The position numbers and the translations under genes are program-made. Below the pieces are notes generated by a model, which was not told the DNA's origin, did no database searches, and was given only the letters and a program-made list of their open reading frames with translations. Shown here in pieces: positions 1 to 14,419 of a stretch of 14,419 bases of DNA (the stretch's first letter is position 1; every line of letters begins with the position of its first letter). This stretch comes from Candidatus Bathycorpusculum sp. (GTDB taxonomy: Archaea > Thermoproteota > Bathyarchaeia > Bathyarchaeales > Bathycorpusculaceae): assembly GCA_009779045.1 (NCBI GenBank), contig WREZ01000011.1, positions 1-14,419 on the forward strand. Direction: 5' to 3'.

Positions 1-1
1 A

Positions 2-793
2 CTTTTAATTGTTTCTTTAATTGTAGTTGTTGTGTTACTGGTTTCTTTGTTGGCTTATCAGTCTTTAGTTGTAACCAATGGTTCTGTACGCGTTAAAAAC
101 GCGGCTGAGTTAAGAGATGCTGTTAATAAAGCAGAGGTTGGGGTACATGTTGATATTGTTCTTACTAAAGATATTTCTCTTGGTCCTGAGCTTACTATTC
201 CTGCAGGTGCAGACATTACATTAAAAAGTGCTGGCGGAAGGGGCTTTTTTAGGCTGATTGGACTGGATGGACAAAATGTTATCACTATTATGAGTGGTGG
301 ACGGTTGACGCTTGATGGGATTATTGTAATGCATGAGAATGGTGATAGGGGGTTGGGCGTATCTGTTTTTGGGGGTACACTTATTATGGTTAATGGAGAG
401 ATTTCCGGTAACACAGATGATCGTGGTGGTGGCGTAAATATTAGTGCTGAGGGTGTTTTTGAGTTTGTTGGCGGTGTGATTTCGGGTAATGCTGCAACAT
501 GGGGTGGTGGAGTGTATAATTGGGGTACATTTGAAATGTATGGTGGCAAAATTTCTGGTAACACAGCCACACTTACATATGCATGGGCCCATAATGGCGG
601 TTATGGCGGTGGCGTATACATGATGTATGGCTCCTTTAGTATGTCAGGTGGTGAGATTTCAGGTAACACCGCTTTACAGAGTGGTGGCGGTGTATACATT
701 GATGGCACTATGAACTCTTTTGAACGGTTAGGTGGTGAGATTTCAGGTAACACCGCTAACATAGATAACGATGTGGGTAACGGAACCGAGTAA
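2..793 (+). CDS. Beta-helix repeat surface protein (5' end outside window)
   Basis: Partial gene. The frame stays open to the left edge, and the GTG at 32 is only an internal codon of a hydrophobic stretch (codons from base 2 read LLIVSLIVVV and continue into VLLVSLLAYQS), so this is a signal peptide or membrane anchor whose beginning lies outside. The rest is a secreted right-handed parallel beta-helix. Counting from the GTG at 32, ISGN repeats occur at residues 124-127, 150-153, 174-177, 209-212 and 237-240, usually followed by GGGVY. Such GGxISGNTA repeats are known from adhesin-like or polymorphic-membrane-protein-like proteins of gut bacteria and methanogens, and I infer a cell-surface binding role. 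The protein stops right after a repeat with a short polar tail and no visible C-terminal anchor or sorting signal, so it may be shortened. No ligand can be named. Horizontal origin is possible but not shown. Confidence 0.8.
   Translation, partial: LLIVSLIVVVVLLVSLLAYQSLVVTNGSVRVKNAAELRDAVNKAEVGVHVDIVLTKDISLGPELTIPAGADITLKSAGGRGFFRLIGLDGQNVITIMSGGRLTLDGIIVMHENGDRGLGVSVFGGTLIMVNGEISGNTDDRGGGVNISAEGVFEFVGGVISGNAATWGGGVYNWGTFEMYGGKISGNTATLTYAWAHNGGYGGGVYMMYGSFSMSGGEISGNTALQSGGGVYIDGTMNSFERLGGEISGNTANIDNDVGNGTE
646..757 (+). repeat. 28-bp exact direct repeat inside the beta-helix gene
   Basis: Bases 646-673 and 730-757 are identical over 28 bp, beginning AGGTGGTGAGATTTC. They are 84 bp (28 codons) apart and in frame, and each encodes a GGEISGNTA repeat. 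The three upstream ISGN copies differ at synonymous and other positions, so these two look recently duplicated or homogenised. Confidence 0.9.
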
Positions 794-822
794 ACAGGAT
801 TATCAGCGTAAATACTTTACAA

Positions 823-1033
823 CCCTAACTTCCCAAAATTAAGCAACATATTTCGGCCATAAGTCGTGTTTATCAGCCATTTTTACAATTAGATCCATAT
901 TTAACCTTTTAGGGATGTGTCTATATTACTTATTTAAGTAATGTGTTGTTTCCATAAAAAAGCTTCCATTGTAAAAATAACGTAAAAACAAGCTCAGAAC
1001 CAAAAACATATTACTTAAATCAGGAAGTTAGGG
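823..1033. repeat. Long imperfect inverted repeat in a 398-bp non-coding region
   Basis: The gap 794-1191 has no convincing gene. It holds a symmetric structure centred near 928. CCCTAACTTCC at 823-833 is the exact reverse complement of 1023-1033, and ATTTTTACAAT at 879-889 is the exact reverse complement of 968-978. Between these anchors the arms share TTAAG-AA-AT spaced elements, and many of the differences are transitions that would still allow G-U pairs in RNA. Near the centre sits ATTACTTATTTAAGTAAT (925-942) with 8-bp arms. It could be a decayed MITE-like element or a transcribed long hairpin. No target-site duplication is obvious. Confidence 0.6.
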
Positions 1034-1163
1034 ATAAATTGTTGTTATCCTGTTGGAGTCAATAATGGGTATACTTATTGTTTTATCGTTAAACTGTTCT
1101 TATTTTTAGTGAGGGTTATTGGATGTTAATTGTTGAAAATTGAGAAGGGTTAGGGGGTTAGTT

Positions 1164-1187
1164 GGAGTTATGGTGTTCCATAACTTT
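1164..1187 (-). terminator. Hairpin just downstream of the synthase gene
   Basis: AGTTATGG (1166-1173) pairs with CCATAACT (1178-1185) around a 4-nt loop, and two further G-T pairs are possible. It begins within a few bases of the stop codon of the minus-strand synthase gene. No strong T-run follows on the minus strand, so it could be a 3'-end stabiliser rather than a true terminator. Confidence 0.35.
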
Positions 1188-1191
1188 GGGG

Positions 1192-2412
1192 TTATTGTGT
1201 GATTTTTAGGTCTTGGAGGATTTTTTTGAATTCGTCGTCGTTTAGTGAGGCGCGTCGGCCGTTTGCGTATATGTTTTTGACTGTGTCTACGACTGTGGCG
1301 ATGTTTTGGTCATCTGGTTCTGTGCCGGTGATTTCAGTTATTTTGTGTTTGATTATGCCTTTGCCACTTTGCTTGCCTATGGTTAGTCTGCGTTTGTTAC
1401 CCACAAGTTCTGGTGGGTATGGTTCGTAAGTCCAGGGGTTGCTTAGGACACCGTGAGTGTGTATGCCTGATTCGTGGGCAAAGCCATAGTCGCCAATGAT
1501 GGCCTTGTTAGGGGGCAGGTGGAAACCTGTGGCGTGGCTGATGTAGTCTGCTGTTTGTTTTAGTTTCTCTGTTTTGCCTTCAAATTTGCGTATGCCATAG
1601 TGTAAATACAGGTTTAAGATGACTTTTTCTGTTTCAGCATTACCTGCGCGTTCGCCAATACCTAGATATGTTGTGCTTGCGTAAATTTTTTCCCAGACAC
1701 CTTGAGCGGCTTTAATGGCCGCTATAGTGTTTCCAACGGCATTGCCAAAGTCATCGTGGGCGTGTATTTCTATGGCTTTGATTTTGGTTTCTTTTTTAAT
1801 TGCAACAACCTTAGCGGGGATGCCACTTGGCAGAGGTGCATCATCACCTGAGAGGCCGATGCCTACAGTGTCACAAACACGATAACATTCTGCACCTGCA
1901 TCAGCAACACTGTTAATTAGTTTAGATTCAAAAGTCCAGTCTGCTCGTGTACTATCTTCGCCGTGAACAAATGTGCGCAAACCACAGGTTTTTGCGGCAT
2001 ATTCGGTTACATCAATTAGGTTAGCGAGGATTTGTTCACGAGTTTTTTCAGGCCATTTTGCTTGGAAATGCATGTCTGAAACGGGGTGAGAGATGCCTAC
2101 TTCATTGAAACCTAATTGTACTGCACTGTCAATGTCTTCTTTTACTGCACGACACCATGCTGCAATTCTCATGTCTAGTTTTTGGTTTAGGATGAGTTTT
2201 GCGGCTTGTTTGTCAGGTTCTTGATAGTGGAATAATTCGATTCTTTCTACGCCTATTTCGCTTAATAGTTTAGCTATTTGTGCGGCGTCTTGTGGTCCAA
2301 CGGCTAGGCCAGGCATTTGAATGCCGTCTCTTAATGTGCTATCGTCGATTATTGGCTCTGTTTTGAGTTCAGGAAGTTTGAAATAAAATTGATTTAACTC
2401 CAATTTTTGCAT
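1192..2412 (-). CDS. Homocitrate synthase / 2-isopropylmalate synthase family enzyme
   Basis: A 406-residue member of the LeuA/HCS superfamily (HMGL-like TIM barrel), which condenses acetyl-CoA with a 2-oxo acid. Visible motifs: DSTLRDGIQ at 24-32 (metal-binding Asp and catalytic Arg), the metal-binding HAHDDFGNAVGN at 217-228, GIGERAGNAE at 251-260, FAHESGIHTHGV at 311-322 and LTIGKQSGK at 343-351. The C-terminus ends at about 406, so the long LeuA-type leucine-binding regulatory domain is absent. This favours homocitrate synthase (lysine via alpha-aminoadipate, or an AksA-like role) over feedback-regulated isopropylmalate synthase, but substrate cannot be settled from sequence alone. I31 stands where many relatives have Glu (DGEQ). 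The ATG at 2412 has GGAG only 2 nt upstream, an unusually short Shine-Dalgarno spacing. The gene appears monocistronic; downstream lies a hairpin and upstream a 188-bp control region. Confidence 0.85.
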   Translation of the reverse strand: MQKLELNQFYFKLPELKTEPIIDDSTLRDGIQMPGLAVGPQDAAQIAKLLSEIGVERIELFHYQEPDKQAAKLILNQKLDMRIAAWCRAVKEDIDSAVQLGFNEVGISHPVSDMHFQAKWPEKTREQILANLIDVTEYAAKTCGLRTFVHGEDSTRADWTFESKLINSVADAGAECYRVCDTVGIGLSGDDAPLPSGIPAKVVAIKKETKIKAIEIHAHDDFGNAVGNTIAAIKAAQGVWEKIYASTTYLGIGERAGNAETEKVILNLYLHYGIRKFEGKTEKLKQTADYISHATGFHLPPNKAIIGDYGFAHESGIHTHGVLSNPWTYEPYPPELVGNKRRLTIGKQSGKGIIKHKITEITGTEPDDQNIATVVDTVKNIYANGRRASLNDDEFKKILQDLKITQ

Positions 2413-2445
2413 CTCTCCGTTTACTTTATGCTTTTCTCAAACATA

Positions 2446-2530
2446 ATGTAATGTTAGGTAATATTTCTGTGACATTGATAAACATTACTATATAGATTTA
2501 ACAACCTTATCAAACAGTTTAACATTACAT
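2446..2530 (-). promoter_or_regulatory. Putative control region of the synthase gene
   Basis: On the minus strand a TATA-like CTATATAG lies at 2488-2495, which would place transcription start near 2465. ATGTAATGTTA (2446-2456) and its exact inverse TAACATTACAT (2520-2530) flank the TATA box, and a third AAACATTACTA copy lies at 2480-2490. The near-palindrome AATGTTAGGTAATATT (about 2450-2465) would overlap the start site. The arrangement looks like operator sites around an archaeal core promoter. No regulator is known, and AT-rich background makes chance matches possible. Confidence 0.4.
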
Positions 2531-2601
2531 ACTGTCGTTTATCTTGTCACACAGCAAATAAAACCTTTACATATAACAAAAAAGTAAACACACATTAAAT
2601 A

Positions 2602-2913
2602 CTAAAAATGTTTAAGCAAAGCCTTAATGGTTCCTGAAACCGCCAAAACATGCACAGAAGCCGGCATACCCGCAACACGTATAATACAAGCCAAAGAAGC
2701 CCTAACAAAATCCAACGTTTCAAGCGAAGTACGAACAACAACAATTTTACAAGAAACATCAAAATTAATCAAAGCCATACTAGTCAAACTAGCGCCCACC
2801 TCACCATAAAGCCGCGTAACAGACCCCCAAATAGCATCCATTAACTCTTTTTCAGAGGGCACACCTTCCATTTCCACTTGCAATGCCAAATAACGCCGCT
2901 TCACCCGCTTCAC
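2602..2913 (-). CDS. rnp2: Ribonuclease P protein component 2 (Pop5)
   Basis: Small archaeal RNase P subunit of 103 residues from the start chosen here. Pop5 pairs with Rpp30 on the catalytic domain of RNase P RNA during tRNA 5'-end maturation. The N-terminal KRVKRRYLAL is the typical basic Pop5 opening, followed by the alpha/beta fold with ALINFDVSCKIVVVRT in the middle. The frame extends to a TTG at 2922, but AAGGAGG (2924-2930) leaves no spacing for it. The GTG at 2911-2913 lies 10 nt after that Shine-Dalgarno and overlaps the TGA of the upstream Rpp30 gene as GTGA, the classic coupled arrangement, so I place the start there. It is the last gene of the operon; the proteasome and exosome genes that often follow in other archaea are not present here. 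Its sense strand is G+T-rich, unlike the A+C-rich 5' genes of the same operon. Confidence 0.85.
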   Translation of the reverse strand: MKRVKRRYLALQVEMEGVPSEKELMDAIWGSVTRLYGEVGASLTSMALINFDVSCKIVVVRTSLETLDFVRASLACIIRVAGMPASVHVLAVSGTIKALLKHF

Positions 2914-3644
2914 AGACCACAAACCTCCTTAACAATACGCACTCCTGGAGCAACAAAATTGCTACACAGCTTTTCACGATTACGTAAAACAATAGCTAAA
3001 GGATTAGACGAAACAGCATTTAAACCCTCAACAATATCTAACCCAAATATGTAGGATAAACTTGCCATGTCACGTGGCATACGCATAAAACGTTCTTCAT
3101 TTACACCACTGGAAACAATCAAGGGTACACCAAAAGTTTTGGCAATTGTAATTTCACGCCGTAAACAAGCCAGAAAACGAATACGCGCTGGGCCTTCTAA
3201 AGTAAACAATGGTTTAACATCAATTTCTAAAGCTGCATTGCCACTACGAGCAAGTTCAGCCTCAGAACGATCAAAAAAGCGGTTACGATAGTCAAGATTG
3301 GGAAAATTCAACAAGTCTACCCGACGATCTTTGGCAGCTTGACGAGAAAGCTCTTTATTATCGCAAAGAACGCAAATTATGTCAAATTTACGTCTTAATC
3401 GGCGTAGACTATTCATAAGGTCATTTTCGTTTCGAGGATACAAATCCGCTCTTAAAACAGGTTCGATGCCGGAAGTTTTACAAACTGTTGTTAGGTTCTC
3501 AATTTCACTTGTCGTTGGTTCAAAAGAAAAAGGGACTGCTATGTAGCGATAACCAAAATTTGTTGCGCGCTGTATTGTATTTTGAAGGGTTTGTGTGTCT
3601 TTTGGGTTAATTTTTAGGTGTAGGTCAGCAAATAAGCGTTTCAT
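2910..3644 (-). CDS. rnp3: Ribonuclease P protein component 3 (Rpp30)
   Basis: A 244-residue PHP-like TIM-barrel protein, the normal length for archaeal Rpp30. It forms a complex with Pop5 and supports the catalytic domain of RNase P RNA in 5'-processing of pre-tRNA. Diagnostic segments: FADLHL at 5-10, KDRRVDLLNFP at 105-115, ALEIDVKPLF at 138-147 and VSSG at 177-180. The PHP metal ligands are incomplete, as expected for this non-enzymatic branch. Its ATG overlaps the TGA of the upstream COG1325 gene (ATGA), and its own TGA overlaps the GTG of pop5, so the three are probably translationally coupled. The base composition changes partway through this gene, roughly 3400-3500. Confidence 0.92.
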   Translation of the reverse strand: MKRLFADLHLKINPKDTQTLQNTIQRATNFGYRYIAVPFSFEPTTSEIENLTTVCKTSGIEPVLRADLYPRNENDLMNSLRRLRRKFDIICVLCDNKELSRQAAKDRRVDLLNFPNLDYRNRFFDRSEAELARSGNAALEIDVKPLFTLEGPARIRFLACLRREITIAKTFGVPLIVSSGVNEERFMRMPRDMASLSYIFGLDIVEGLNAVSSNPLAIVLRNREKLCSNFVAPGVRIVKEVCGL

Positions 3645-4087
3645 GGTAGTAACCCAGATTTTTTGAGAATCTCTATTATTTCTTCATGTGTTTTATTTTT
3701 GAAGTGAATTTTAAAGTGGATGGGATCGTTTTGTGTGAATTTAATTTTGCCTAGTAATGCTGCTTGTTTGTCAAAGCGTAGGTATAAGTTGGTTTTGTCT
3801 ATATGTAGCTGGAGGTTGTTGTTTAGGGTGTCTTTGTCTATGGCGTTTATGTTTTGACCTATTTTTTCAAGTAGGGTGGGTAGGTGTTTTTTTTCGGTTA
3901 GTTGGGTTGTAAAAAGGGTGATAGAGTTCCCGTGATGTCCTGTTAAATTGTTTTTTTCGAATTGTACAGTTTCAGATAGTTCTGTTGGTAGTAGTTTATG
4001 TAGTGCTGATAGGACTTTTTCTGGGTCTTCTGTGGCGTGAGCAAAGGCTCTTAAATCGATATAGTTGACAAGTGATTTTTGGGACAT
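3641..4087 (-). CDS. COG1325-type RNA-binding protein (predicted exosome-associated)
   Basis: A 148-residue protein of the archaeal RNA-binding family PF01877/COG1325. The N-terminus reads VNYIDLRAFAHATEDPEKVLSAL and the middle has GHHGNSITLF, both characteristic. The family adopts a ribosomal-L5-like fold and is predicted to act with the RNA exosome or in rRNA/tRNA handling; no exact role is proven. It lies between eL13 (43 nt upstream) and rnp3 (4-nt overlap), the usual neighbourhood of this family. The ATG is preceded by GGTG with short spacing. The coding strand is strongly A+C-rich, giving many Lys, Asn, Thr and His codons, in contrast to pop5 in the same operon. Confidence 0.8.
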   Translation of the reverse strand: MSQKSLVNYIDLRAFAHATEDPEKVLSALHKLLPTELSETVQFEKNNLTGHHGNSITLFTTQLTEKKHLPTLLEKIGQNINAIDKDTLNNNLQLHIDKTNLYLRFDKQAALLGKIKFTQNDPIHFKIHFKNKTHEEIIEILKKSGLLP

Positions 4088-4130
4088 TGGGCACCGAGTT
4101 CTTTTGACTTATAGCATTATTTAGCTAAAT

Positions 4131-4337
4131 TTATGCTTCAGTCTTTTTGTCAGCTATACGGCTTAAGGTTTCAATGTTGCTTTCGTGTTCGCTTTTGCGT
4201 CGAAAGTCAACGGGTATGCCTAATTGTTTAGCTTGAAAGCAGGTTATGCCTGCTTTTGTTAACTCGTTTGGGCTAAAACCTCTGCCTTTTTTTGTTTTGC
4301 CATCGGGTTTTTGGATAACGGGTTTTATGTTACACAT
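4131..4337 (-). CDS. rpl13e: Large ribosomal subunit protein eL13 (short archaeal form)
   Basis: A 68-residue protein recognisable as the archaeal eL13 core: KGRGFSPNELTKAG (residues about 17-30), then AKQLGIPVDFRRKSEHESNIETL. eL13 is a 60S/50S protein that in archaea is confined to TACK-like lineages and their relatives, so this gene carries taxonomic weight. The start ATG lies 2 nt beyond the eL15 stop, with GGAGA about 9 nt upstream inside the last eL15 codons, which indicates translational coupling. The protein is short but complete from start to stop. Cys-2 and Cys-33 are present but do not form a zinc motif. Confidence 0.85.
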   Translation of the reverse strand: MCNIKPVIQKPDGKTKKGRGFSPNELTKAGITCFQAKQLGIPVDFRRKSEHESNIETLSRIADKKTEA

Positions 4338-4339
4338 GA

Positions 4340-4927
4340 TTATTGGTCTCCGTGTTTTCTTGCGCCTTTCCGGAGGCTTGGTCTAACTTTTTCTGCTCCG
4401 CGTCCACGGTTGCGTAATCCTCTTACTTGTTTACCTGCGCTAGTTAGGCTTCTAAAGACGCGGCTTGTGTGTTGACGTTCGGTAATCCAGTTTATGTCTT
4501 TATCTGCTTGTATAACTGGACTATGAGGGTCAACTAGTATTACTTCAAACCATTTGCTTCTTCCATCTTGACCAACCCAGTAGCTGTTTAGGACTTCTAA
4601 GTTAGGGAATTTTTTTGCCGTTCTTTCCTCGGCGATTAATCGGATACTTTTTGATGGTTTAAATTTTGCAACACCCATACGTTTTGGCCGTCTACCAGAG
4701 CGTGGTCTTATTTTACGTAGTCCACCACGTCTTACGCGTGTACGGACAACTACAAAGCCTTGTTTTGCTTTGTAACCTAGTTTACGGGCTTTATCGAGCC
4801 TTGTTGGATGTTCAATACGTGTTACGGTTGGTTGTCTTCTCCATTGCACTAAGCGTTGTCGCATTAGTTCTTCAACAAAGGAGTCTTCGGGCTTTGCCCA
4901 TTCATCTGCCATGTATTTGTAGGCCAT
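4340..4927 (-). CDS. rpl15e: Large ribosomal subunit protein eL15
   Basis: At 195 residues this matches the usual archaeal eL15 length. Recognisable parts: N-terminal [34 protein letters not shown] around 43-62; the Arg/Gly-rich [20 protein letters not shown]; and [22 protein letters not shown] near 113-132. eL15 binds 23S rRNA early in large-subunit assembly. It is first in the five-gene operon with eL13, COG1325, rnp3 and rnp2. The ATG at 4927 is preceded by AGGTG 7 nt upstream (4936-4940). That Shine-Dalgarno overlaps the TAG of a 22-codon reading frame in a GC-rich leader, so translation may be coupled or controlled there. Confidence 0.95.
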
Positions 4928-4938
4928 TTGTTTTTCAC

Positions 4939-5007
4939 CTAATGTATTATTTGTTTACGGTTCAGCCTTTCGGCCACATCCCTGCGGACATGTTTATCCG
5001 CCTGCAT
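4939..5007 (-). CDS. Candidate leader peptide / structured leader of the eL15 operon
   Basis: A 22-codon frame starts at the ATG 5005-5007 ([16 protein letters not shown]...) and ends at TAG 4939-4941, which overlaps the AGGTG of eL15. GGTG lies about 5 nt before its ATG. A TATA-like box at 5029-5040 would start transcription within a few bases of this ATG. The stretch 4958-5005 is 29/48 G+C, far above its surroundings. It can also fold: GCGGA (5001-4997) with TCCGC (4988-4984), and GGCC-GAAA-GGCT (4975-4964) with a GNRA tetraloop. So it may be a small basic peptide, an autoregulatory RNA leader, or both. I do not recognise homologues. Confidence 0.4.
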
Positions 5008-5028
5008 TTTTACACCAGATTACCATTG

Positions 5029-5040
5029 CATAAAATAAAC
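5029..5040 (-). promoter_or_regulatory. TATA box of the eL15 operon
   Basis: On the minus strand GTTTATTTTATG reads as an archaeal TATA element. About 25 nt downstream is the ATG of the leader frame (5007), giving an eL15 mRNA leader of about 80 nt. Upstream to 5198 the sequence is AT-rich and A+C-biased on the plus strand, with no gene that I can support. Confidence 0.5.
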
Positions 5041-5198
5041 CTTTCCAGAAAACAGGCACTCTTAATACGTCAACAGCAAACAAAGAAACAAAATAACCCA
5101 AAACATGACGCTCTGGATACTTCAATTAAAAGATGCGCCATTCAATAATTACAAAATATAGTTAATACATAAGTTAAGTGACAAAATAATTAAGAGGG

Positions 5199-5223
5199 AA
5201 AAATTGTTGTAAAAATAAAAATT
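5199..5223 (-). terminator. T-rich terminator after P1
   Basis: Reading the minus strand, the sequence 10 nt after the P1 stop is CAATTTTTATTTTTACAAC, then another T5 run. Poly-T stretches of this kind are the usual archaeal transcription stop signals. It separates P1 from the eL15 operon. Confidence 0.65.
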
Positions 5224-5233
5224 GAGGCGTTAT

Positions 5234-5554
5234 TTATCCGAATAATGCGCCTAATCCTTCTAGTGCTGCTTCTTCTTTGGCTTTTTCGTCTTCAGCTTTC
5301 TTCTTGTCATCTATTGGTGCGGCTACTTTAGCTTCATCACCTGTTGCGGGTGCTGCTGCTGGAACTGCGGCCATCATAGTTGGAGCTGCTTTAATTGCTT
5401 CATCAATGTTAACTTCACTAAGTGATGCAACGAGTGCTTTAACTTGTATTGTATCAACATTAATACCTGCTGCAGTAAGAACTTTTGTAACGGACTCTTC
5501 ATTAATTTCTTTACCTGCCTTGTGAAGGAGCATTGCTGCGTAAATGTTTTCCAT
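5234..5554 (-). CDS. rpl12: Ribosomal stalk protein P1 (archaeal L12)
   Basis: A 106-residue acidic stalk protein. Residues 1-57 form the helical dimerisation part ([20 protein letters not shown]). Then comes an Ala/Pro-rich hinge ([15 protein letters not shown]), a charged helix and the C-terminal GLGALFG that contacts translation GTPases such as aEF2 and aIF5B. Length and layout are those of archaeal P1. A clear GAGGTG lies about 7 nt before the ATG. In most archaea P1 follows L11, L1 and L10 in one operon; here those genes are absent and P1 has its own leader of roughly 140 nt and a T-rich terminator, so it appears to be transcribed alone. Confidence 0.95.
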
Positions 5555-5575
5555 ATCTTTTCACCTCTTCATTAG

Positions 5576-5727
5576 ACTATTTTAACCATAGCGACATAAC
5601 TAACTAAAATAGTTAATGTCTTGAATTGCAGTTGACTGCATCATCTTGCCGCTTAAAAGAAAACCCTATGCCTTAATAACCTTTCGCAGCACAGATGTTA
5701 TGATTAGATAAAATATTACGTATAAAC
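5576..5727 (-). promoter_or_regulatory. P1 promoter and structured leader
   Basis: On the minus strand GTTTATA (5721-5727) is a good TATA box, placing transcription start near 5696 and leaving a leader of about 140 nt. The leader contains TGCAGT-CA-ACTGCA (5627-5640) and a hairpin of ACTATTTTA (5613-5605) with TAAAATAGT (5584-5576), ending about 8 nt before the GAGGTG ribosome site. Such a leader could allow control of stalk-protein synthesis, which is inference. The rest of the gap to 5806 shows nothing I can name. Confidence 0.45.
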
Positions 5728-5806
5728 AAATTTTTGCAGCATACCACAACATTACAATAGCATATTCTATGATGAGAGCAAAGGGCATGCTTTCAGTATA
5801 GAACCT

Positions 5807-6955
5807 TTAGGGTGAATCATTAGATGTGGATTCTGTTGGAAGTTCTGTTTGAAGAGGGGTCGTGGGCTCTTTTTGTTTTTTATACATAAGTGTACCGATT
5901 ATTGCTATAGGTATCCAGCCTGTGATGATAAATACTGTTGCGGGAAGTCCGGTAAGGTTAGGGAATCCGTGTAGGTTAAAGTATGTTATAATGTCTTGCA
6001 TGAATATTTCCCAGATTGTGAAAGATATAACCATTGAGATGATCGCAGTGTAGCCATATTTTTTGCCGAATTTGTGGAATGTTTGAATAGCCAATATTCC
6101 GGCGAAAAAGAAGTCGCCAAGACCAAGGCCTCTAAAGGCCATAACGCCGGCGGCATTATGGTAAAAGGGAATGTTGGGTAAATAAATGATTACGGGTAGA
6201 CCCAATCCTGTGAAAGTGTTTGCTGCGGTAATCATTGGCCCACTGAAGACCAATATAATATCTAATATTGTCAATAGTGCAGCAAATATTCCAACGGTTT
6301 TCCAGTTAAACATTGGACTAATATATAGGATAATAAGTATCGCAAAGGTTGCCCCAAAAATATCTAGTACATAGGGGAACCAAATATTTAATGTATTTTC
6401 GAAGTGAAGTATGTTAAAGAAGATAAAGATTAATAGAAATAGTGCAGGTGGTTGTGCTGCAAGATACCATTTTGTTTTTTTACCGTCGTCATTTTTCTTT
6501 TGTTCATATGCTGCTATTGCAAAACATATTATGGTTAATCCAAAAAATGCTCCTACTCTAAAGGGTGTAGCGGGGTCTTGAAGGGGTTCTAAAAGGCTAG
6601 CTATGCCTGTAATCAGACTGGCTATGCCAATGCATATTGAAAATATTTGTGCTCTTCTTTTTTTAATGTCTGAGAAGAGGTGAGTGAAAGTGAATAGTAG
6701 CATTGTGTAGGATCCTAAGAAAATAGCTAGTAGAATGTTTTCAAACATGTTACCTGGGTTAAAATAGGATGTTAGAGCGATGGTTGAAACGACAACGGCT
6801 ATTACTATGGCAAACATGAGGATGTCTTTTGTTTGAAACTCTTTTTCTTCTGTCATTGTTGCTTTGATTTTTTTTTCTGCTCGTTTGTTTAGGAGAAATG
6901 CTGCTGTTACAACTAGCAGTAGAGTTAATGGCATAGCAATGTCGAAGGTAGGCAT
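5807..6955 (-). CDS. Presenilin/signal-peptide-peptidase-like intramembrane aspartyl protease
   Basis: A 382-residue membrane protein with about eleven hydrophobic helices (roughly 7-23, 44-64, 72-94, 103-122, 133-150, 165-184, 193-213, 219-240, 268-290, 302-320, 338-357) and a polar tail. Three features match the presenilin/SPP fold. An Asp lies in a helix at LLTILDIILVF (D232). The conserved active-site motif appears as FRGLGLGDFFFAGIL (D281). A PAL-like LPAT (337-340) precedes the last helix. Between the two Asp residues LPVIIYLP matches the (L)PV...P segment typical of the family. The Asp-Asp spacing of 49 is in the family range. The proteases cut transmembrane segments such as remnant signal peptides. 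Oddities: Leu replaces the usual Tyr before D232, PAT replaces PAL, and there seem to be two extra helices relative to nine. A TATA-like box about 27 nt before the ATG and no Shine-Dalgarno suggest a leaderless mRNA. The fallback is an uncharacterised membrane protein. Confidence 0.7.
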   Translation of the reverse strand: MPTFDIAMPLTLLLVVTAAFLLNKRAEKKIKATMTEEKEFQTKDILMFAIVIAVVVSTIALTSYFNPGNMFENILLAIFLGSYTMLLFTFTHLFSDIKKRRAQIFSICIGIASLITGIASLLEPLQDPATPFRVGAFFGLTIICFAIAAYEQKKNDDGKKTKWYLAAQPPALFLLIFIFFNILHFENTLNIWFPYVLDIFGATFAILIILYISPMFNWKTVGIFAALLTILDIILVFSGPMITAANTFTGLGLPVIIYLPNIPFYHNAAGVMAFRGLGLGDFFFAGILAIQTFHKFGKKYGYTAIISMVISFTIWEIFMQDIITYFNLHGFPNLTGLPATVFIITGWIPIAIIGTLMYKKQKEPTTPLQTELPTESTSNDSP

Positions 6956-6976
6956 ATGAGCAAAGTGAGAACTGAA

Positions 6977-6986
6977 GCATTTATTT
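6977..6986 (-). promoter_or_regulatory. TATA-like box of the intramembrane protease gene
   Basis: CAAATAAATG on the minus strand is centred about 27 nt upstream of the ATG at 6955, and no ribosome-binding site precedes that ATG. This fits a leaderless transcript beginning at or next to the start codon. Confidence 0.35.
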
Positions 6987-6990
6987 GTTT

Positions 6991-7033
6991 ACCTATAACC
7001 TTGAAAAAGCTTTGATAAAATGGGTTTATAGGT
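6991..7033 (-). terminator. Stem-loop at the 3' end of the SPOUT gene
   Basis: ACCTATAAACC (7033-7023, minus strand, spanning the stop codon) can pair with GGTTATAGGT (7000-6991) with one bulged A. The loop carries ATTTTATC and CTTTTTC. It could help end the SPOUT transcript, but it is weak and AT-rich. Confidence 0.25.
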
Positions 7034-7880
7034 TAAATTGTGTGTTCAGTATTGCTAAGGAGATTATAAGGGCTTCTTCTGTTCGTACTGTAGCTGTTCC
7101 TTGGTTGGGAACTGTGTTAACGATGAAGTCTGAAATGTTTTCAAGGCGTAGACCTTCATCTTTAACGATTTCATGTAGTCCACGTGAGGGGGCGCCAAAG
7201 GCCATTAATACTCTGTTAGCTTGATTCCATCGCTTGGCAATTTTGTCAGCAACATCAACAAAGTAGTTAGCAACACGGGCAGTTGATATTACTAAATCGA
7301 ATTGTTCAGTTTGCAACATGTGTCCAAATGTTTCATTTTCAACTTTAACTTGAAATCCCCAGTAAGAGGGAACATCGTTACGGTTGACTGATTGAACTTC
7401 AATTCGTTCGCCATTTTTTATAACTTGAACTGTTAAGCGTTCACCAACAAAGAATTGTCGCTCACGTAATAGGGCGGTACTTTGGACGCCAAGGTCAACT
7501 ATTAGGCCTTCTTTTGTTTGGTTTAATATTATACTTTCGCGGTATTCACCAATTTTTAGATCTCTGTTTTTACCGCTGGTCGGATGATGTGGTGCACGTA
7601 GAGGTGGCAAAATTCCAGCGTATTGTAGGTCGGGTTCTATTTTGTAGATGTTTTTTCTTAGGTATTGTGGGGTTTCTATATAGTTTAATAATTTTGCTAT
7701 AAGTTTTAGATCGCGTGTTTGGTTTGTGTGTGGGTCGTCTGGGTATATGATGATTTCTTGTATTCTAAATATTGCTGCTGCTCGGGCGATTAATCCTATC
7801 TTTGAGGTTTTCTCGCGTAGGTGAGGTGTGTCAGATATTATGGATACTGGAATAGCTATGGAAAGTTTGCTTTTGTTCAC
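7026..7880 (-). CDS. COG2106-type SPOUT RNA methyltransferase
   Basis: A 284-residue protein matching the archaeal SPOUT family COG2106/PF02598 (MTH1-like). It has an N-terminal half with LREKTSKIGLIARAAAIFRI (21-40), the motif AGILPPLRAPHHP (88-100), and a beta-rich insert around 105-180 (GLIVDLGVQSTALL). The C-terminal knot carries FGAPSRGLHEI (228-238) and NTVPNQGTATVRTEEA (255-270), which form the S-adenosylmethionine pocket. The family is predicted to methylate rRNA; the exact site is not known to me. The start is a GTG (7878-7880) preceded only by a weak GTAGG. In many archaea this gene heads the uL3 ribosomal cluster; here it has the protease gene downstream and a divergent sugar isomerase upstream, so that linkage is lost. 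Confidence 0.88.
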   Translation of the reverse strand: MNKSKLSIAIPVSIISDTPHLREKTSKIGLIARAAAIFRIQEIIIYPDDPHTNQTRDLKLIAKLLNYIETPQYLRKNIYKIEPDLQYAGILPPLRAPHHPTSGKNRDLKIGEYRESIILNQTKEGLIVDLGVQSTALLRERQFFVGERLTVQVIKNGERIEVQSVNRNDVPSYWGFQVKVENETFGHMLQTEQFDLVISTARVANYFVDVADKIAKRWNQANRVLMAFGAPSRGLHEIVKDEGLRLENISDFIVNTVPNQGTATVRTEEALIISLAILNTQFNL

Positions 7881-7964
7881 TTTTTTTGCCTACATGTTTA
7901 TAGTTGCGTTCAGCTTAAAAAGGTGTATAACGATATTAAAATAAGTAATGTTGAGGTTTAAGCG
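7881..7964. promoter_or_regulatory. Divergent promoter region, SPOUT gene / sugar isomerase
   Basis: An 84-bp gap between two divergent genes. On the plus strand CTTAAAAAGG (about 7914-7922) is a plausible TATA box, and GAGGT (7953-7957) is a clear ribosome site 7 nt before the isomerase ATG. The same CTTAAAAAG region, read on the minus strand, could serve the SPOUT gene. TATA calls are weak. Confidence 0.4.
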
Positions 7965-9086
7965 ATGGATACTCATAGGTTAGTAGATCCTCAAGAAATG
8001 AAGCGGGTAGATAAGGCAGGCATGTTGCAGTTTTGTCTAAACATGAGTAGACACTATCGAGAGGCAGCTATTTTAGCTACAGGTATAACAACTAGTTATC
8101 CTAAACCCCGCAATATTATCATTGCAGGTATGGGTGGTTCGGCTATTGGTGGTGAATTTCTTAAGGATTGGGCGAGAGGTAAAATTTGTGTTCCTATAGA
8201 GGTTAATAGAGAGTATCATTTGCCTTTTTATGCTAATGAAGAGACTTTGGTGTTGGTAACTAGTTATACGGGGGATACTGAAGAGACTTTAAGTGCTCTT
8301 CTTGATGCCCTTCGAAATAAGTGTATGATTTATTGTATAACAAGTGGTGGTACACTTATGAGGATTGCAGAGTGTCTAAATATTCCCTATTTACAGGTTC
8401 CAGCAGGTATGCCACCTAGGGCAGCTTTGCCATACATGCTTATACCTCTGCTAATGTATCTTGAGAAAATAGGGTTATCTGAGGTTTCTATAGAGTTTAA
8501 TGAAGCATTTTCCATACTAGAAGAAGTTGAAAGACAGAATGCTGCTAAAACACCGGTTGCAGATAGTTTCGTTAAAACTTTAGCGATTAACATTGAAGGC
8601 GTTATTCCTATGGTTTATGGTTTTGGCATTTATAGTGGTGCCGCTAGGCGATTTAAGCAGCAGATTAATGAGAATGCTAAAATGGTGTCAAAATGGGATA
8701 ATTTACCTGAGTTAAATCATAATGAAATAGTTGGGTATGAAAAATCTGAGGCGCATAAAGATCGGTTAGCTGCGATTTTTATTCGTGATAGGGATGAGTC
8801 CGTAGAGATTCATAGTCGTATTGAAGTAACAAAAAAGCTCATGGAGGCGTCTGGGGTAAGTCTTTATGAGGTTTGGAGTCAAGGTAAAAGTAGTCTTGCA
8901 AAGATGCTCTCAGTTATTGCTGTGGCAGATTTTTTAAGTAATTACTTAGCTATACTTCGTGGAGTTGATCCTACACCTGTTCAAACAATTGATAAATTAA
9001 AGGATTCTTTAAAGAAGAATTGTGTAAAAGAACAGGTTATTAAAGAGATAGAAAAAATGACAAATGTGTCTATTGTGACACATTGA
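7965..9086 (+). CDS. Bifunctional phosphoglucose/phosphomannose isomerase
   Basis: A 373-residue SIS-domain protein of the archaeal PGI/PMI family. It interconverts glucose-6-phosphate or mannose-6-phosphate with fructose-6-phosphate and so feeds glycolysis, gluconeogenesis and sugar nucleotides for glycans. Sugar-phosphate motifs: GMGGSAIGG (55-63) and TSYTGDTEET (99-108); PRAALPYML (151-159) is also typical. Catalytic residues line up with the Pyrobaculum enzyme: E236 and H252 have the same 16-residue separation as Glu203/His219, and T337 and K344 the same 7-residue separation as Thr291/Lys298. All four are present, so the enzyme should be active. It is somewhat longer than the roughly 300-350 usual, with an extended C-terminal tail. 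It ends in a stem-loop plus T-run shared with the convergent inositol phosphate synthase gene. Confidence 0.92.
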   Translation: MDTHRLVDPQEMKRVDKAGMLQFCLNMSRHYREAAILATGITTSYPKPRNIIIAGMGGSAIGGEFLKDWARGKICVPIEVNREYHLPFYANEETLVLVTSYTGDTEETLSALLDALRNKCMIYCITSGGTLMRIAECLNIPYLQVPAGMPPRAALPYMLIPLLMYLEKIGLSEVSIEFNEAFSILEEVERQNAAKTPVADSFVKTLAINIEGVIPMVYGFGIYSGAARRFKQQINENAKMVSKWDNLPELNHNEIVGYEKSEAHKDRLAAIFIRDRDESVEIHSRIEVTKKLMEASGVSLYEVWSQGKSSLAKMLSVIAVADFLSNYLAILRGVDPTPVQTIDKLKDSLKKNCVKEQVIKEIEKMTNVSIVTH

Positions 9087-9094
9087 GTTTTTTT
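9063..9094 (+). terminator. Stem-loop plus T7 terminator of the sugar isomerase
   Basis: AATGTGTC (9063-9070) and GACACATT (9077-9084) form an 8-bp perfect stem with a 6-nt loop, followed by GAG and T7 (9088-9094). The stem lies in the last codons and reaches into the TGA. It is a bacterial-style intrinsic terminator in shape. On the opposite strand CTTTTCTTTTC just after the convergent gene can serve that gene. Confidence 0.7.
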
Positions 9095-9106
9095 AGAAAA
9101 GAAAAG

Positions 9107-10162
9107 TTAGGCGTTTGTGTAGCGTTTAAATTCTTCCTCAGCTACATCTATGGAGGTCATTTCAGGTGGACGTTTAAATCCGTAAGCACAAATTACTTTA
9201 ATTGCGCCTGATTGTTTTTTAGTTAACGCCACTTTAACTGCGCGTACAACATCTAAAAGTATGCTGCCTGCGTTTGGGGCGTCAACAGTTTGGAATTTTA
9301 AGTCAATTTTTAGGGGTGTATTGCAAAAATAGACGCCATTTATGTAGAAATAGCTATCACGTTTGTTTTGTAAAAAGTCCACATAGTCCGTTGATCCCGC
9401 TACAATATTGGTTTTGTATGGTAAGGCTGATGCGACTGACTCGGTTTTGATTGTTCGTTTCGCGTCTCTTGTGCGTTCGAGTGTATCAACGGATTCTGCC
9501 CCGCCTCCGACGTCAAGTTGATAAGTTTCAGAGATTTTTACACCACTCTCCGAGAGCAATTTGAGTAAAGTTTTGTGTAATGCTGTTGAGCCAACTTGAT
9601 CTACTAAATCATCGCCAATAAGGGGCAAGTTTGCTTCTTTAAATTGATTTGCCCACAAGGGTTCACTTGCAATAAAGTTTGGAGTAGCATTAATAAATGC
9701 ACAACCCGCCAGGATAACCTGTTTTGCATAATATTCAGTTGCCTTAATTGCACCACTTGGGAGCAAATTTATAACCATTTCAGCCCCTGAATTTTTAAGC
9801 GTTTGAGCAACATCAACATCAACTTGGCTACTTACTTTAATTATGTCTTTTGTTGACTCCCCAACTCCATCAAGAAGTGGACCCTTACTTACTATAACAC
9901 CTGTTTTTGGCACTTGAGATACTTTTGGCGCATTATTTGGTTCAGCAAAAATTGCATCTGAGAGATCTAATCCGACTTTACGCTCATCTACATCAAATGC
10001 TGCAACAACTGTTATGTCACATGGAGTATAACCAGCTAATGTTGAGTTACGCAAACCAACAAACTCTTCTGGTTTTGAAGCTTTACTATAATAATTTAAA
10101 CCCTGAAGGAAAGCGGAAGCACAATTTCCAACACCAATTAATGCAACTTTAATTTTTGACAC
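9107..10162 (-). CDS. ino1: myo-Inositol-1-phosphate synthase
   Basis: NAD-dependent cyclisation of glucose-6-phosphate to inositol-1-phosphate, the first step to archaeal phosphoinositide lipids and some inositol solutes. From the start chosen here the protein has 351 residues, normal for the short archaeal/actinobacterial form. Motifs: Rossmann GVGNCAS (10-16), FINATPNFIA (156-165), the signature GDDLVDQVGSTALHKTLL (183-200) and active-site KIDLKFQTVDAPNAGS (285-300). The frame extends upstream to 10276, but the extra 38 residues are hydrophobic and unlike the family. The GTG at 10160-10162 has AGGTG (10171-10175) 8 nt upstream and a TATA box about 40 nt upstream, so I start there. It converges on the sugar isomerase with 20 bp between stop codons; both enzymes draw on glucose-6-phosphate. 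Confidence 0.9.
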   Translation of the reverse strand: MSKIKVALIGVGNCASAFLQGLNYYSKASKPEEFVGLRNSTLAGYTPCDITVVAAFDVDERKVGLDLSDAIFAEPNNAPKVSQVPKTGVIVSKGPLLDGVGESTKDIIKVSSQVDVDVAQTLKNSGAEMVINLLPSGAIKATEYYAKQVILAGCAFINATPNFIASEPLWANQFKEANLPLIGDDLVDQVGSTALHKTLLKLLSESGVKISETYQLDVGGGAESVDTLERTRDAKRTIKTESVASALPYKTNIVAGSTDYVDFLQNKRDSYFYINGVYFCNTPLKIDLKFQTVDAPNAGSILLDVVRAVKVALTKKQSGAIKVICAYGFKRPPEMTSIDVAEEEFKRYTNA

Positions 10163-10201
10163 TTCTTTGGCACCTACACAACTTTCATATTTATACCAAC
10201 C

Positions 10202-10213
10202 CGTATAAAAAGC
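10202..10213 (-). promoter_or_regulatory. TATA box of the inositol phosphate synthase gene
   Basis: GCTTTTTATACG on the minus strand resembles an archaeal TATA box. Transcription would begin near 10180, just before the AGGTG ribosome site at 10171-10175. It lies inside the longest possible frame, which supports the shorter start at 10162. Confidence 0.45.
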
Positions 10214-10404
10214 TACGCCACGATAAAACCGTACTATAAGTGTTTGAATAGAAAAAAATAGTACTGCAAACAACAAATAACATCATCACCAGATCAGAGA
10301 CTTTCTGAAAAGTGGATTAAATGATAATGTTTACTATGTGCTCAATTTGAAGGGTATTTTTGAGGTTTTCTGTAGAGTTATTTGTATGATTTTTTGGAGG
10401 GTTA

Positions 10405-10450
10405 TTTAAAAAAAGCTTTTAGTTATGTATGTGTTAGGTAACACATAACT
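10405..10450 (+). promoter_or_regulatory. gatDE promoter with a dyad over the predicted start site
   Basis: TTTAAAAAAA (10405-10414) is a good TATA box. Centred about 28 nt downstream is TATGTGTTAGGTAACACATA (about 10428-10447), with 9-bp arms around GG. Outer AGTTATG (10421) and CATAACT (ending 10450) extend the symmetry with a 4-nt offset. The dyad covers the expected start site, so it could be a repressor operator or a 5' hairpin in the mRNA. The gap 10277-10404 shows T-rich sequence, nothing else I can name. The ribosome site before the gatD ATG is weak (GAGAGATTAGC). Confidence 0.5.
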
Positions 10451-10499
10451 CATATGTTTAGAGTTAGCACGTGGGTTACTGTTTAATAGAGAGATTAGC

Positions 10500-11846
10500 A
10501 TGAGCGAGTTGGAAAATTCAGGTTATAATGGTATAGCGTTACACCTACTTCAAGCGGCGGATTGTCAAGTTGGAGATATCATACGTGTTATCAGCAAAGA
10601 TAGGACTTATGAAGGGATTTTAATTCCACGTGTAGAACGGGGAGATGCTGCAAATATTGTTATAAAACTGAAGAGTGGCTACAACATTGGTATAACAGCT
10701 TCTGAAAGTGTTAACGTAGAGAAAATTGGTATTGGTACCAAACCCACGTTTATATCGCCAACACCGCCCAAACAAAACTCTGCTTTGCCTCATGTAGTGA
10801 TTATGAGTACAGGTGGAACCATTGCGAGTCGTGTGGATTATCGGACGGGTGCAGTTCGTTCGGCCATATCGGCAAACGATCTTTATGGTGTTGTGCCTGA
10901 GTTATCAGAAATTGCTCGTATTGATACTGAAATTGTTTTTAGCATTTATAGTGAAAATTTAACTCCAAAAAATTGGACTGAATTGGCTCATAAAGTTGCT
11001 GAATGTGTAAAGCAAGGTGTTGATGGTATTGTAATTGCCCATGGCACAGACACTATGGGTTACACTTCTGCAGCATTAAGTTTTGCATTACAAAACTTGC
11101 CTGTTCCTGTGATTCTTGTTGGAGCGCAACGTTCATCTGACCGTCCTAGTAGTGATGCTGCAACTAATTTGATTGGCGCTGTCAAAGTTGCCAGTGAAGC
11201 CCCTTTTGCTGAGGTAGGTTTAGCTATGCATGAAACGGTCTCTGATTCAGCTATTGTTGTACATAGGGGTGTTAAAGTTCGTAAGTGTCATACAAGTCGT
11301 CGGGACACTTTCAAGTCTGTTAATGGTTTTCCTATTGCTAAAGTTTTGAATCAAAAAATTATCCTTGAAAATGAGGATTATCAACGTAGGGACAGTTCAA
11401 AGGAGTTGATTTTGAAGGCGGATTTCTGTGATAAAGTTGCGCTTGTAAAGTTTTACCCAGGTATGGATCCTTCAGTTATTGATTTTTATGTTAATCAGGG
11501 TTTTAGGGGTATTTTGCTTGAAGGTTCAGGTTTGGGGCATGTTAGTTCAGTCTGTTTTGATGCTATCAGAAATGCTACTGCTAAAGGAGTTGTTGTAGCG
11601 CTTGCTTCACAGTGTATTTGGGGGCGGGTTAATATGAATGTGTACGATACAGGTCGTGATTTGTTAAGTTTAGGGGTTGTGCCTCTTGAGGATATGTTTC
11701 CTGAGACGGGGCTTGTTAAGCTTATGTGGGCTCTTGGTCAGAGTGATGATGCTGAAGAAGTACAGTTGTTGTTGAAAACTAACATTTCAAGTGAGTTTAC
11801 GTTGTGTACTCGTTCTCAAGAAAAAATTGTTTATGGAGTGGAATAA
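10500..11846 (+). CDS. gatD: Glu-tRNA(Gln) amidotransferase subunit D
   Basis: A 448-residue amidase subunit of the archaeal GatDE complex. It releases ammonia from glutamine or asparagine for conversion of Glu-tRNA(Gln) to Gln-tRNA(Gln) by GatE. An N-terminal beta-rich domain (about 1-90, VGDIIRVISKDRTYEGILIPR) precedes the L-asparaginase-like domain. Active-site elements: MSTGGTIASRVDY (102-114) with nucleophile T107, HGTDTMGYT (181-189) with T183 and D184, and RKCHTSRRDTF (261-271) with Lys262. GIVIAHGTDTM and LVGAQRSSDRPSSDA are GatD-type rather than plain asparaginase. The archaea-only enzyme implies that the organism lacks a glutaminyl-tRNA synthetase, as is usual. gatE starts one nucleotide after the stop, with its ribosome site inside the last gatD codons. 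Confidence 0.96.
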   Translation: MSELENSGYNGIALHLLQAADCQVGDIIRVISKDRTYEGILIPRVERGDAANIVIKLKSGYNIGITASESVNVEKIGIGTKPTFISPTPPKQNSALPHVVIMSTGGTIASRVDYRTGAVRSAISANDLYGVVPELSEIARIDTEIVFSIYSENLTPKNWTELAHKVAECVKQGVDGIVIAHGTDTMGYTSAALSFALQNLPVPVILVGAQRSSDRPSSDAATNLIGAVKVASEAPFAEVGLAMHETVSDSAIVVHRGVKVRKCHTSRRDTFKSVNGFPIAKVLNQKIILENEDYQRRDSSKELILKADFCDKVALVKFYPGMDPSVIDFYVNQGFRGILLEGSGLGHVSSVCFDAIRNATAKGVVVALASQCIWGRVNMNVYDTGRDLLSLGVVPLEDMFPETGLVKLMWALGQSDDAEEVQLLLKTNISSEFTLCTRSQEKIVYGVE

Positions 11847-11847
11847 A

Positions 11848-13743
11848 GTGTCTGTTGTTGATTATACGAAGATTGGTTTGAAAATTGGTTTAGAAATTCA
11901 TCAGCAACTTAATGTTGGTTCAAAATTGTTTTGTAATTGTCAGCCAGAATTGTTTAAGGAGAATCCTGAGGTAACTTTTTTGCGTCGTCTTCGTCCGACG
12001 CAGAGTGAGCTTGGGCAGTTTGATCCTTCAGTGTTTTTTGAGTTTCAAAAGGGTGTTAGAATTCTTTATGAGGCTAAGGGTAAAAGTGTGTGTCTTGTTG
12101 AGATGGATGAGGAGCCACCACACCCCTTGAATAGAGAGGCTTTAAAAGTTGTTCTCACAGCGGCGCTTATGATGAATATGCAACCTGTTGATGAGGTGCA
12201 TGTTATGCGCAAAACCGTTATTGATGGTTCTAACACTACGGGTTTTCAACGTACAAGTGTTATAGCATTAGATGGTGGGATAAAGGTGGGTGAGAAGACT
12301 ATTTTTATGCAGGCGGTTAGTCTTGAGGAGGATGCTGCGCGAAAGATAGGTGTTGAAGATGAGGGTAAAACTATTCGTTATCGTGTTGATCGTCTTGGTA
12401 TTCCGTTAATTGAGGTTACTACGGCGCCTGTGATTTATTCTCCTCTTGAAGCGCAGCAGGTTGCCTTGGCGATTGGTAAGATTTTGCGTGATACAGGTAA
12501 AGTTATGCGTGGTTTAGGGGTTATTCGTCAAGATCTTAATGTGTCAATTTCAGAGGGTGCTTTAATTGAAATTAAGGGTGTACAGGAGCTTGAGTTAATT
12601 TCCACGGTGATTGAGTATGAAGTGCAGCGTCAACTGGGGTTACTTAGTATAAAAGAGGAGTTACATAATAGAGGTATTACTAAAGAGAAATTGGAACATG
12701 TTTTTGTGGATGTTACAGATGTTTTTAGTGAGTCTAAGGCGAAGGTTATTCGAAAAGCTGTGGATAAAAATCAGAAAGTTTTAGCTGTTAAGCTGGTAGG
12801 GTTTGCGGGGCTTTTAGGTAGAGAGTTAATGCCTAATTTTCGTGTGGGTTCAGAGTTTTCTGATAGGGCAAAGTTTTGGGGTAGGGTTGGCGGAATTTTT
12901 CATACCGATGAACTGCCTAACTATGGCATAACACTTGAAGAAGTAGCGGCGGTACGTAGAGCCGTTGGTGCAACAGACGAAGATGGAGTTGTATTTGTTG
13001 CAGATACCGCAGAAAATACTCAAGATGCACTAAAAGCTGTGGTGGATCGCGCTCAAGAATTACTTGTAGGTGTGCCTGTAGAAACTAGAACCGCTAAAGA
13101 GGACGGCACAACACGTTACATGCGACCACGTCCAGGCGCGTCTAGAATGTATCCTGAAACAGACATTCCCATACAGGCCATAACAGAGGAACTAATCAAA
13201 GAAGTTTTAGATAATATGCCTGAACCCGCAGAGAAAAAACTATCGCGCATAATGAAACAATACCAACTAAATGAAAAATTGACAAAACAAATCATAGACT
13301 CTGAATGGGCCAAATTATTTGAAGAAATTGTTAACGAAACAGCTATATCCGCATCCATTGTTGCAGCGTTTCTCACTGAAACCATAAAATCATTAAAACG
13401 AGACGGCATCACAGTCGAAAACGTCAACGAAAACCAAATAAAAACCTTATTTGCCACAGTTAGCTCAGGCACACTTGCTAAAGAAGCCTTAGCAGAAGTT
13501 TTCAGTTGGCTCGCAAAAAACGAAAATAAAACCGTACAAGACGCAATAACCACCTTAGGCCTAAAAATGCTAACAGAAACTGACCTAGAACAAATCATTG
13601 ACCGCATTATCGTTGCTAACAAACAAGCAATTGAAAAGAACGGTAAAAACGCATTTGGAATGCTAATGGGCATAGTAATGAAAGAAGTACGAGGCAAAGC
13701 TAACCCAGAAATAGTCAACAAAATTCTAAAACAAAAAACCTAA
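11848..13743 (+). CDS. gatE: Glu-tRNA(Gln) amidotransferase subunit E
   Basis: The tRNA-binding kinase/transamidase subunit that phosphorylates Glu-tRNA(Gln) and accepts ammonia from GatD. It has 631 residues from the GTG chosen, normal for the family. GLEIHQQL (14-21), RRLRPTQSELG (46-56), KTVIDGSNTTGFQRT (122-136), SLEEDAA (158-164), YRVDRLGIPLIEVTT (178-192) and IRQDLNVS (225-232) form the cradle domain. The GatE-specific GAD insert includes HTDELPNYG (352-360), and SRMYPETDIP (432-441) precedes the helical and YqeY-like tail. The GTG at 11848 has GGAGTGG (11835-11841) at ideal spacing; the ATG at 11833 and the GTG at 11791 have none. Codon use changes sharply at about base 12900 (residue 352): G+T-rich before, A+C-rich after, with the frame intact. 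Confidence 0.96.
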   Translation: MSVVDYTKIGLKIGLEIHQQLNVGSKLFCNCQPELFKENPEVTFLRRLRPTQSELGQFDPSVFFEFQKGVRILYEAKGKSVCLVEMDEEPPHPLNREALKVVLTAALMMNMQPVDEVHVMRKTVIDGSNTTGFQRTSVIALDGGIKVGEKTIFMQAVSLEEDAARKIGVEDEGKTIRYRVDRLGIPLIEVTTAPVIYSPLEAQQVALAIGKILRDTGKVMRGLGVIRQDLNVSISEGALIEIKGVQELELISTVIEYEVQRQLGLLSIKEELHNRGITKEKLEHVFVDVTDVFSESKAKVIRKAVDKNQKVLAVKLVGFAGLLGRELMPNFRVGSEFSDRAKFWGRVGGIFHTDELPNYGITLEEVAAVRRAVGATDEDGVVFVADTAENTQDALKAVVDRAQELLVGVPVETRTAKEDGTTRYMRPRPGASRMYPETDIPIQAITEELIKEVLDNMPEPAEKKLSRIMKQYQLNEKLTKQIIDSEWAKLFEEIVNETAISASIVAAFLTETIKSLKRDGITVENVNENQIKTLFATVSSGTLAKEALAEVFSWLAKNENKTVQDAITTLGLKMLTETDLEQIIDRIIVANKQAIEKNGKNAFGMLMGIVMKEVRGKANPEIVNKILKQKT

Positions 13744-13795
13744 ACCCGTAATTTAACCCCCTCCAATAACATATAGATAGAGAGGAAAAGAAGGT

Positions 13796-14296: not shown

Positions 14297-14316
14297 CTAA
14301 CCTAATTTCTCGGAAA

Positions 14317-14414
14317 AATTATACATAGGTGGAGAAAACATTTGGAAAACGTGACTAAAATTGGAAAAACGGTTTAAAAATGCTTTTTACAAAAAATAAA
14401 ACCTATGTATAATT
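14317..14414. repeat. 14-bp perfect inverted repeat at the right edge
   Basis: AATTATACATAGGT (14317-14330) and its exact inverse (14401-14414) enclose 70 bp. The interval and its left flank contain GGAAAA-type blocks at 14312, 14331, 14344 and 14363 (spacings 19, 13, 19), including TTGGAAAAC and TTGGAAAAAC. TTTAAAAATG near 14373 could be a TATA box for a gene beyond the window, and the right arm would then lie at its start site. It may be an operator pair or a small terminal-repeat element; no flanking duplication is visible. Confidence 0.55.
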
Positions 14415-14419
14415 CACAC

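Follow-up and report, generated by a model that had tools for sequence, protein, structure and literature searches.

The window analyzed here is the whole 14,419-nucleotide stretch of Candidatus Bathycorpusculum sp. (assembly GCA_009779045.1, contig WREZ01000011.1, positions 1 to 14,419), and at 5807..6955 on its minus strand lies an open reading frame (ORF) with an ATG start, whose 382-amino-acid product has 11 predicted transmembrane (TM) helices and almost certainly belongs to the presenilin/signal peptide peptidase (SPP), or GxGD, superfamily. An initial annotation, made from the DNA letters, had proposed a divergent presenilin/SPP relative in a TACK-type archaeon; the lineage holds, and the kinship is backed by profiles, by fold and by one bridging member above the PF06550 cut-off. 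The motifs and residue numbers that it gave are all exact (coordinates on the minus strand throughout). LLTILD ends in D232, the first predicted catalytic aspartate (codon 6260..6262), which lies in TM6 of the nine-helix core, is preceded by leucine rather than tyrosine, and aligns to the aspartate of the YD motif in the archaeal protease PSH. GLGLGD (residues 276–281, 6113..6130) is the GxGD motif with D281, lies in TM7 and aligns to GMGD of PSH. LPVIIYLP (residues 253–260, 6176..6199) is modeled with a strand at 256–260 that follows a short, TM6a-like helix at 240–250, and LPAT (residues 337–340, 5936..5947) opens the last helix, where a 90-member alignment shows P-[AG]-T replacing PAL. The roughly two additional helices that had been noted correspond to an inserted hairpin at residues 97–161 (6473..6667; model helices 99–119 and 130–153), found in the long form of the family only. 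The two main points of the present analysis, an inverted charge pattern and the operon context, are absent from the initial annotation.

We refer to the family of the window protein as family C, to the canonical PSH-type proteins of the class as type A (profile A5, n = 17), and to a further group from Thermoproteota as type B (A6, n = 15). We collected 90 family-C members, judged distinct on their last 200 residues, of which 71 are long and 19 short. D232, D281, G278, G280, W218, M241 and P254 are invariant in all 90, and every member carries one aspartate in each of two adjacent TM helices (as placed by the model), the second within GxGD. Relatives occur in 55 of the 61 genomes searched, the protein's own genome counted, and with this distribution and these invariant residues the window protein is not a chance occurrence. 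The residue preceding D232 is methionine in 44 members, leucine in 15, valine in 13, isoleucine in 9, alanine in 7, and tryptophan and phenylalanine in one each, so that the Leu-Asp motif first proposed is right for the window protein and is one form of a family-wide x-D. The reading of PAT in place of PAL is likewise right, within a wider rule: P338 and T340 are each kept in 89/90, with glycine (51) or alanine (39) between them. Three loci outside the 90 (L103, L197 and L198) also show, by eye, x-D without tyrosine, GLGD and PAT. A profile built from 34 members (A1) matched 123 of 189 genomes of the class with completeness of at least 80%; nine of these are cross-matches to canonical PSH, leaving 114. 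Across an even sample of the phylum, 67 of 398 genomes matched, five of them outside the class; four of the five (G196, G204, G225 and G264) fit the canonical A5 profile better and the fifth is a 32-residue piece. This sample of 398 genomes thus holds no clear family-C member outside Bathyarchaeia, and family C is, as found so far, a divergent branch confined to that class. In a second collection of 67 loci, made with a 10-row alignment (A3), the record titles read Candidatus Bathycorpusculum for 10 and Candidatus Bathyarchaeota for most of the rest.

Homology to PSH is found by several computed routes. Searched against PDB sequences, the A1 profile gives one match, which is PSH (E 4.6e-6, residues 11–231, both aspartates aligned), and an 18-member short-form profile gives the same result (E 6.9e-5). 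Type A proteins match PF06550 and NF041679 in 17/17 cases, and a profile–profile comparison of family C with canonical A5 gives E 3.3e-11, again with both aspartates aligned, against 0.021 for a column-reversed control and 4.7e-3 for the best of 40 block shuffles. Compared directly with type B, family C gives a weak match, at E 1.3e-4 against 1.4e-3 for the best of 40 shuffles. The predicted structure of the window protein has 11 long membrane helices and contains the nine-helix presenilin fold; modeling a short relative (L167) from its sequence alone gave a poor result (predicted local distance difference test, pLDDT, 51), which was not used. The initial annotation had suggested a profile check with PF06550, for which the window protein itself gives no match at E up to 10, but a member from genome G174 exceeds the gathering cut-off (24.3 vs 23.9 bits). 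Among the 34 members scanned singly, 16 match PF06550 (best 2.7e-4) and 20 match NF041679 (best E 3.5e-5).

Several observations weigh against the assignment. The same scan of 34 members returned the unrelated TraS at 3.0e-4 in one member and MFS_1 at 0.001 in four, so that a PF06550 match at 2.7e-4 would by itself say little; TraS and MFS_1 were dismissed as identities, having no profile or fold result behind them. Searched by itself against Pfam, NCBIfam and PDB sequences, the window protein finds no protease model or match, and Foldseek alone gives nothing at E ≤ 0.001 (best 0.011). The tyrosine of YD is present in 0/90 family-C members (type A 17/17, type B 14/15), and the PAL motif ahead of the last helix is not kept. 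NF041679 scores are 14–22 bits in the five members with scores shown, far from the curated cut-off of 125, three of the eight members scanned there are without a match, and the window protein has none. Because YD, PAL and an NF041679 score at its cut-off are all lacking, we do not file the protein as a PSH equivalog. The absence of PAL is less unusual than the initial annotation implies, since the active archaeal enzyme PSH/MCMJR1 has no obvious PAL either and carries PPL (PMC2947513). As had been anticipated, routine annotation would probably label the protein hypothetical, because it stays below the cut-off of every Pfam and NCBIfam model. The matches to 7TMR-DISM, PMP1_2 and DUF4010 that it does produce (E 0.011–0.043, below cut-off, each in 1/34 members) were rejected as membrane-composition noise. 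A scan of genome contigs with the window protein as lone query gave no match; the protein matches a single site in its own genome.

The orientation of family C in the membrane appears to be the reverse of that of its PSH-type relatives. With TM segments set on family hydropathy profiles and lysine plus arginine counted in the loops, long members (n = 71) carry on average 20.6 such residues on the side opposite the N-terminus vs 2.3 on the other, short members (n = 19) 13.6 vs 2.9, and the window protein 23 vs 0. By charge, the N-terminus would lie inside (N-in) in 0/90 of family C, 17/17 of type A and 15/15 of type B. A count anchored on both aspartates places the N-terminus outside (N-out) in 89/90 family-C members, with one tie and 0/90 N-in, and gives 29 N-in and one unscored among 30 non-C presenilin-family ORFs (27 loci). 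Fourteen of these ORFs, 13 N-in and the unscored one, belong to genomes outside the class; the remaining 16 overlap with types A and B. From this asymmetry we infer that family C is very probably N-out/C-in, the predicted orientation being that of SPP and inverted relative to PSH and presenilin. In eukaryotes, type I helices are the substrates of the N-in presenilins and type II helices those of the N-out SPP/SPPL proteins (PMC7768045). The Pfam families listed for the 34 members, 25 of 28, do not include PF04258, and the SPP-like orientation of family C was therefore probably gained independently of eukaryotic SPP.

Could the loop charges mislead, and the protein be an active presenilin-family protease in the ordinary N-in orientation of PSH, cutting type I helices? 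The positive-inside rule is a tendency rather than a law, PSH is the only solved relative found by sequence, and in the phylum both the PSH-type and the B-type proteins are N-in by charge. Such a reading is nevertheless unlikely, given that the asymmetry falls on the same side in 90/90 members of both forms and that the loops of the extra hairpin keep the same pattern. Two or more lysines or arginines stand in the loop that follows TM7 in 90/90 of family C, and none in the 17 type A and 15 type B proteins; as this single loop separates C from A and B, the result is independent of helix count. A summed test of the catalytic loops points in the C-like direction in 88/90 family-C members by lysine plus arginine and 87/90 by net charge, with 0/17 for type A and 0/15 (lysine plus arginine) or 1/15 (net) for type B; its exceptions, two or three members of C by the respective measures and the one C-like type B protein, count the other way. 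A different doubt concerns catalysis, in that family C might be a non-proteolytic relative, such as a membrane-protein binding or insertion factor, that retains the fold. The lost YD tyrosine and PAL and the proximity to ribosomal genes would fit this, but none of the 90 members, divergent as they are, has lost either aspartate or either glycine of GxGD, a constancy that a non-catalytic role would hardly explain, and we regard such a role as improbable. That the protein is instead an enzyme of the type IV prepilin/preflagellin peptidase kind (FlaK, A24) is extremely unlikely. FlaK too is a GxGD-type protease, according to PMC4985597, but the sequence profiles and the fold point to presenilin/PSH, and no FlaK or prepilin peptidase family is among the 25 of 28 Pfam families listed or the Foldseek and fold matches listed, an absence that does not in itself exclude A24.

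On balance, family C is probably an SPP-oriented intramembrane diaspartyl protease, a divergent Bathyarchaeia branch of the presenilin/SPP superfamily, and there is a high probability that the window protein is an active protease. Topology, catalysis, substrate class and the role of the hairpin are what we infer from the computed homology, synteny, charge asymmetry, predicted fold and invariant residues, as follows. D232 in TM6 and D281 in the GxGD of TM7 would form the catalytic pair, and an unfolded stretch of substrate probably binds next to them, at the short TM6a-like helix and a pair of short strands. With the N-terminus outside, the active site would be inverted relative to PSH and presenilin and placed as in eukaryotic SPP, and it should therefore cut helices with a cytoplasmic N-terminus. 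The likeliest substrates would be signal peptides left after signal peptidase, together with type II anchors; signal-peptide substrates in particular are a tentative proposal, a little short of an even chance. The hairpin would leave the orientation as it is and may offer a surface for docking or for a partner.

The hairpin adds an even number of helices, so the orientation downstream of it is unchanged. Short relatives, of ~260–285 amino acids, lack residues 97–161; they come from other families of the order and, within the family to which the window's genome belongs, from one genome (G036). In a quick 67-protein tree, made with the insert columns removed and to be read with a warning of long branches, family C is set apart from types A and B with 99% support (Shimodaira–Hasegawa-like approximate likelihood ratio test, SH-aLRT). 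Residues ~97–161 are absent from 20 of its 50 family-C rows, and the insert requires two changes, the short protein of G036 (L035) standing at an unresolved fork among long members; a single gain of the insert is neither shown nor excluded by this tree. Some genomes hold more than one family-C or C-like gene: genome G128 has a second, very divergent short family-C-like protein (L103:2034-2810, plus strand, 259 amino acids, D and GLGD kept) beside a normal copy, and Candidatus Bathycorpusculum grumuli has two genes on separate contigs (L107 and L129).

The genomic context of family C is translation-related. Directly upstream of the window ORF, 70 bp away, is a putative RNA methyltransferase gene (PF02598, E 3.2e-63; 7026..7880), and downstream is a gene of the 60S acidic ribosomal protein P1/P2 (L12-type) family (PF00428; 5234..5554), both on the minus strand. 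Of 91 loci, 68 have a PF02598-cluster gene immediately upstream in the same direction, at a median gap of 34 bp; the set includes at least six duplicated contigs and several truncated ones. In the family of the window's genome an L12-type stalk gene is often the neighbor of C; the two stand side by side in 42 loci, convergent in 34 and co-directional in 8; the window is among the latter, and its arrangement is a local rearrangement. In nine different genomes with the short form, C is immediately followed by a gene of the rpl3 cluster (at L037 with a spurious ORF in between) and then, as far as the contig reaches, by rpl4, rpl23 and rpl2; the identities were checked with Pfam at one locus, L042. 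Among 30 selected genomes, 5 carry C between the methyltransferase gene and rpl3, and 6 have these two genes side by side with no C between them; in the remaining 19 the two are apart, divergent or split across contigs, or one or both were missing. These arrangements are most simply read as an insertion of gene C at the S10 ribosomal operon head. Such a context would suit a housekeeping role tied to growth without proving it, and we take it as supporting evidence only; the gene order may be inherited rather than functional, which would count against such a role. In G043, where C is on another contig, a nitroreductase-like ORF (by eye; L195:1309-1833, minus strand) lies between the methyltransferase gene and rpl3, so that this site seems to accept different genes. 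At the start of the window, an ORF open at the contig start (2–793, plus strand) has repeated GG-x-ISGNTA-like units resembling a beta-helix surface protein by eye and no Pfam family above cut-off.

The window's genome also encodes a type-B protein (G000:C171:2088-2804, E 1.1e-77, 287 amino acids) and thus holds one member of each predicted orientation, C N-out and B N-in. Over the 189 genomes, C is present in 114, B in 107 and A in 19; C occurs with A or B in 77 and alone in 37, and A or B occurs alone in 43, numbers in which gaps may be assembly gaps. Have these archaea made their own presenilin/SPP split, in which an inverted, tyrosine-less branch and N-in paralogues of the same cell would cut type II and type I helices, the inverted branch acting as a growth-linked signal peptide peptidase at the S10 operon head in some lineages? 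We would give this an even chance. Near the type-B gene of the window's genome are two ORFs (L199:711-1517 and 143-721, minus strand) that by eye look like a RIO-type kinase and a KH-domain protein, both translation-related. Elsewhere, a type-B ORF of 401 amino acids (L187:1460-2662, minus strand) has a block of ~80 residues around the first aspartate doubled, by duplication or as an assembly artefact.

The open literature searched gave no description of family C (including the accessible parts of PMC9282858, PMC9263693 and PMC8305020, and with the Raut 2021 survey of archaeal homologues not covered) and nothing that treats presenilin and Bathyarchaeia together. The opposite orientations of presenilin and SPP in eukaryotes are already known, as is PSH as the archaeal model enzyme. 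An archaeal cell with predicted presenilin-oriented and SPP-oriented members would allow a direct test, with small enzymes of one chain, of how enzyme and substrate orientation are linked. Family C also shows that relatives can retain both catalytic aspartates and yet lack the YD tyrosine, and it is a candidate signal peptide peptidase for Bathyarchaeia. Compared with PSH/MCMJR1 of Methanoculleus marisnigri (PDB 4hyc, 4hyd, 4hyg and 4y6k; NF041679; PF06550), family C shares the aspartate pair with GxGD in the next helix, a strand right before GxGD, a TM6a-like helix and the lack of a true PAL, but differs in its x-D without tyrosine, its P-[AG]-T, the two-helix insert of the long form, its low NF041679 scores and a charge pattern opposite to that of PSH-type relatives. 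Type B, also present in the window's genome, is a GxGD relative much like family C in size, but it retains YD in 14/15 (one FD), keeps GPxGKI and FPGLP, and is N-in in 15/15 by charge. Human presenilin-1 (PDB 7c9i_B), of a protease linked to Alzheimer's disease that acts inside the gamma-secretase complex, has 13% identity and an orientation opposite to that predicted for family C. Eukaryotic SPP/SPPL proteins (SPPL2a, PDB 9k92 and 9k93) differ from family C in having YD and PAL and belong to PF04258; it is their N-out/C-in orientation that family C matches by loop charge.
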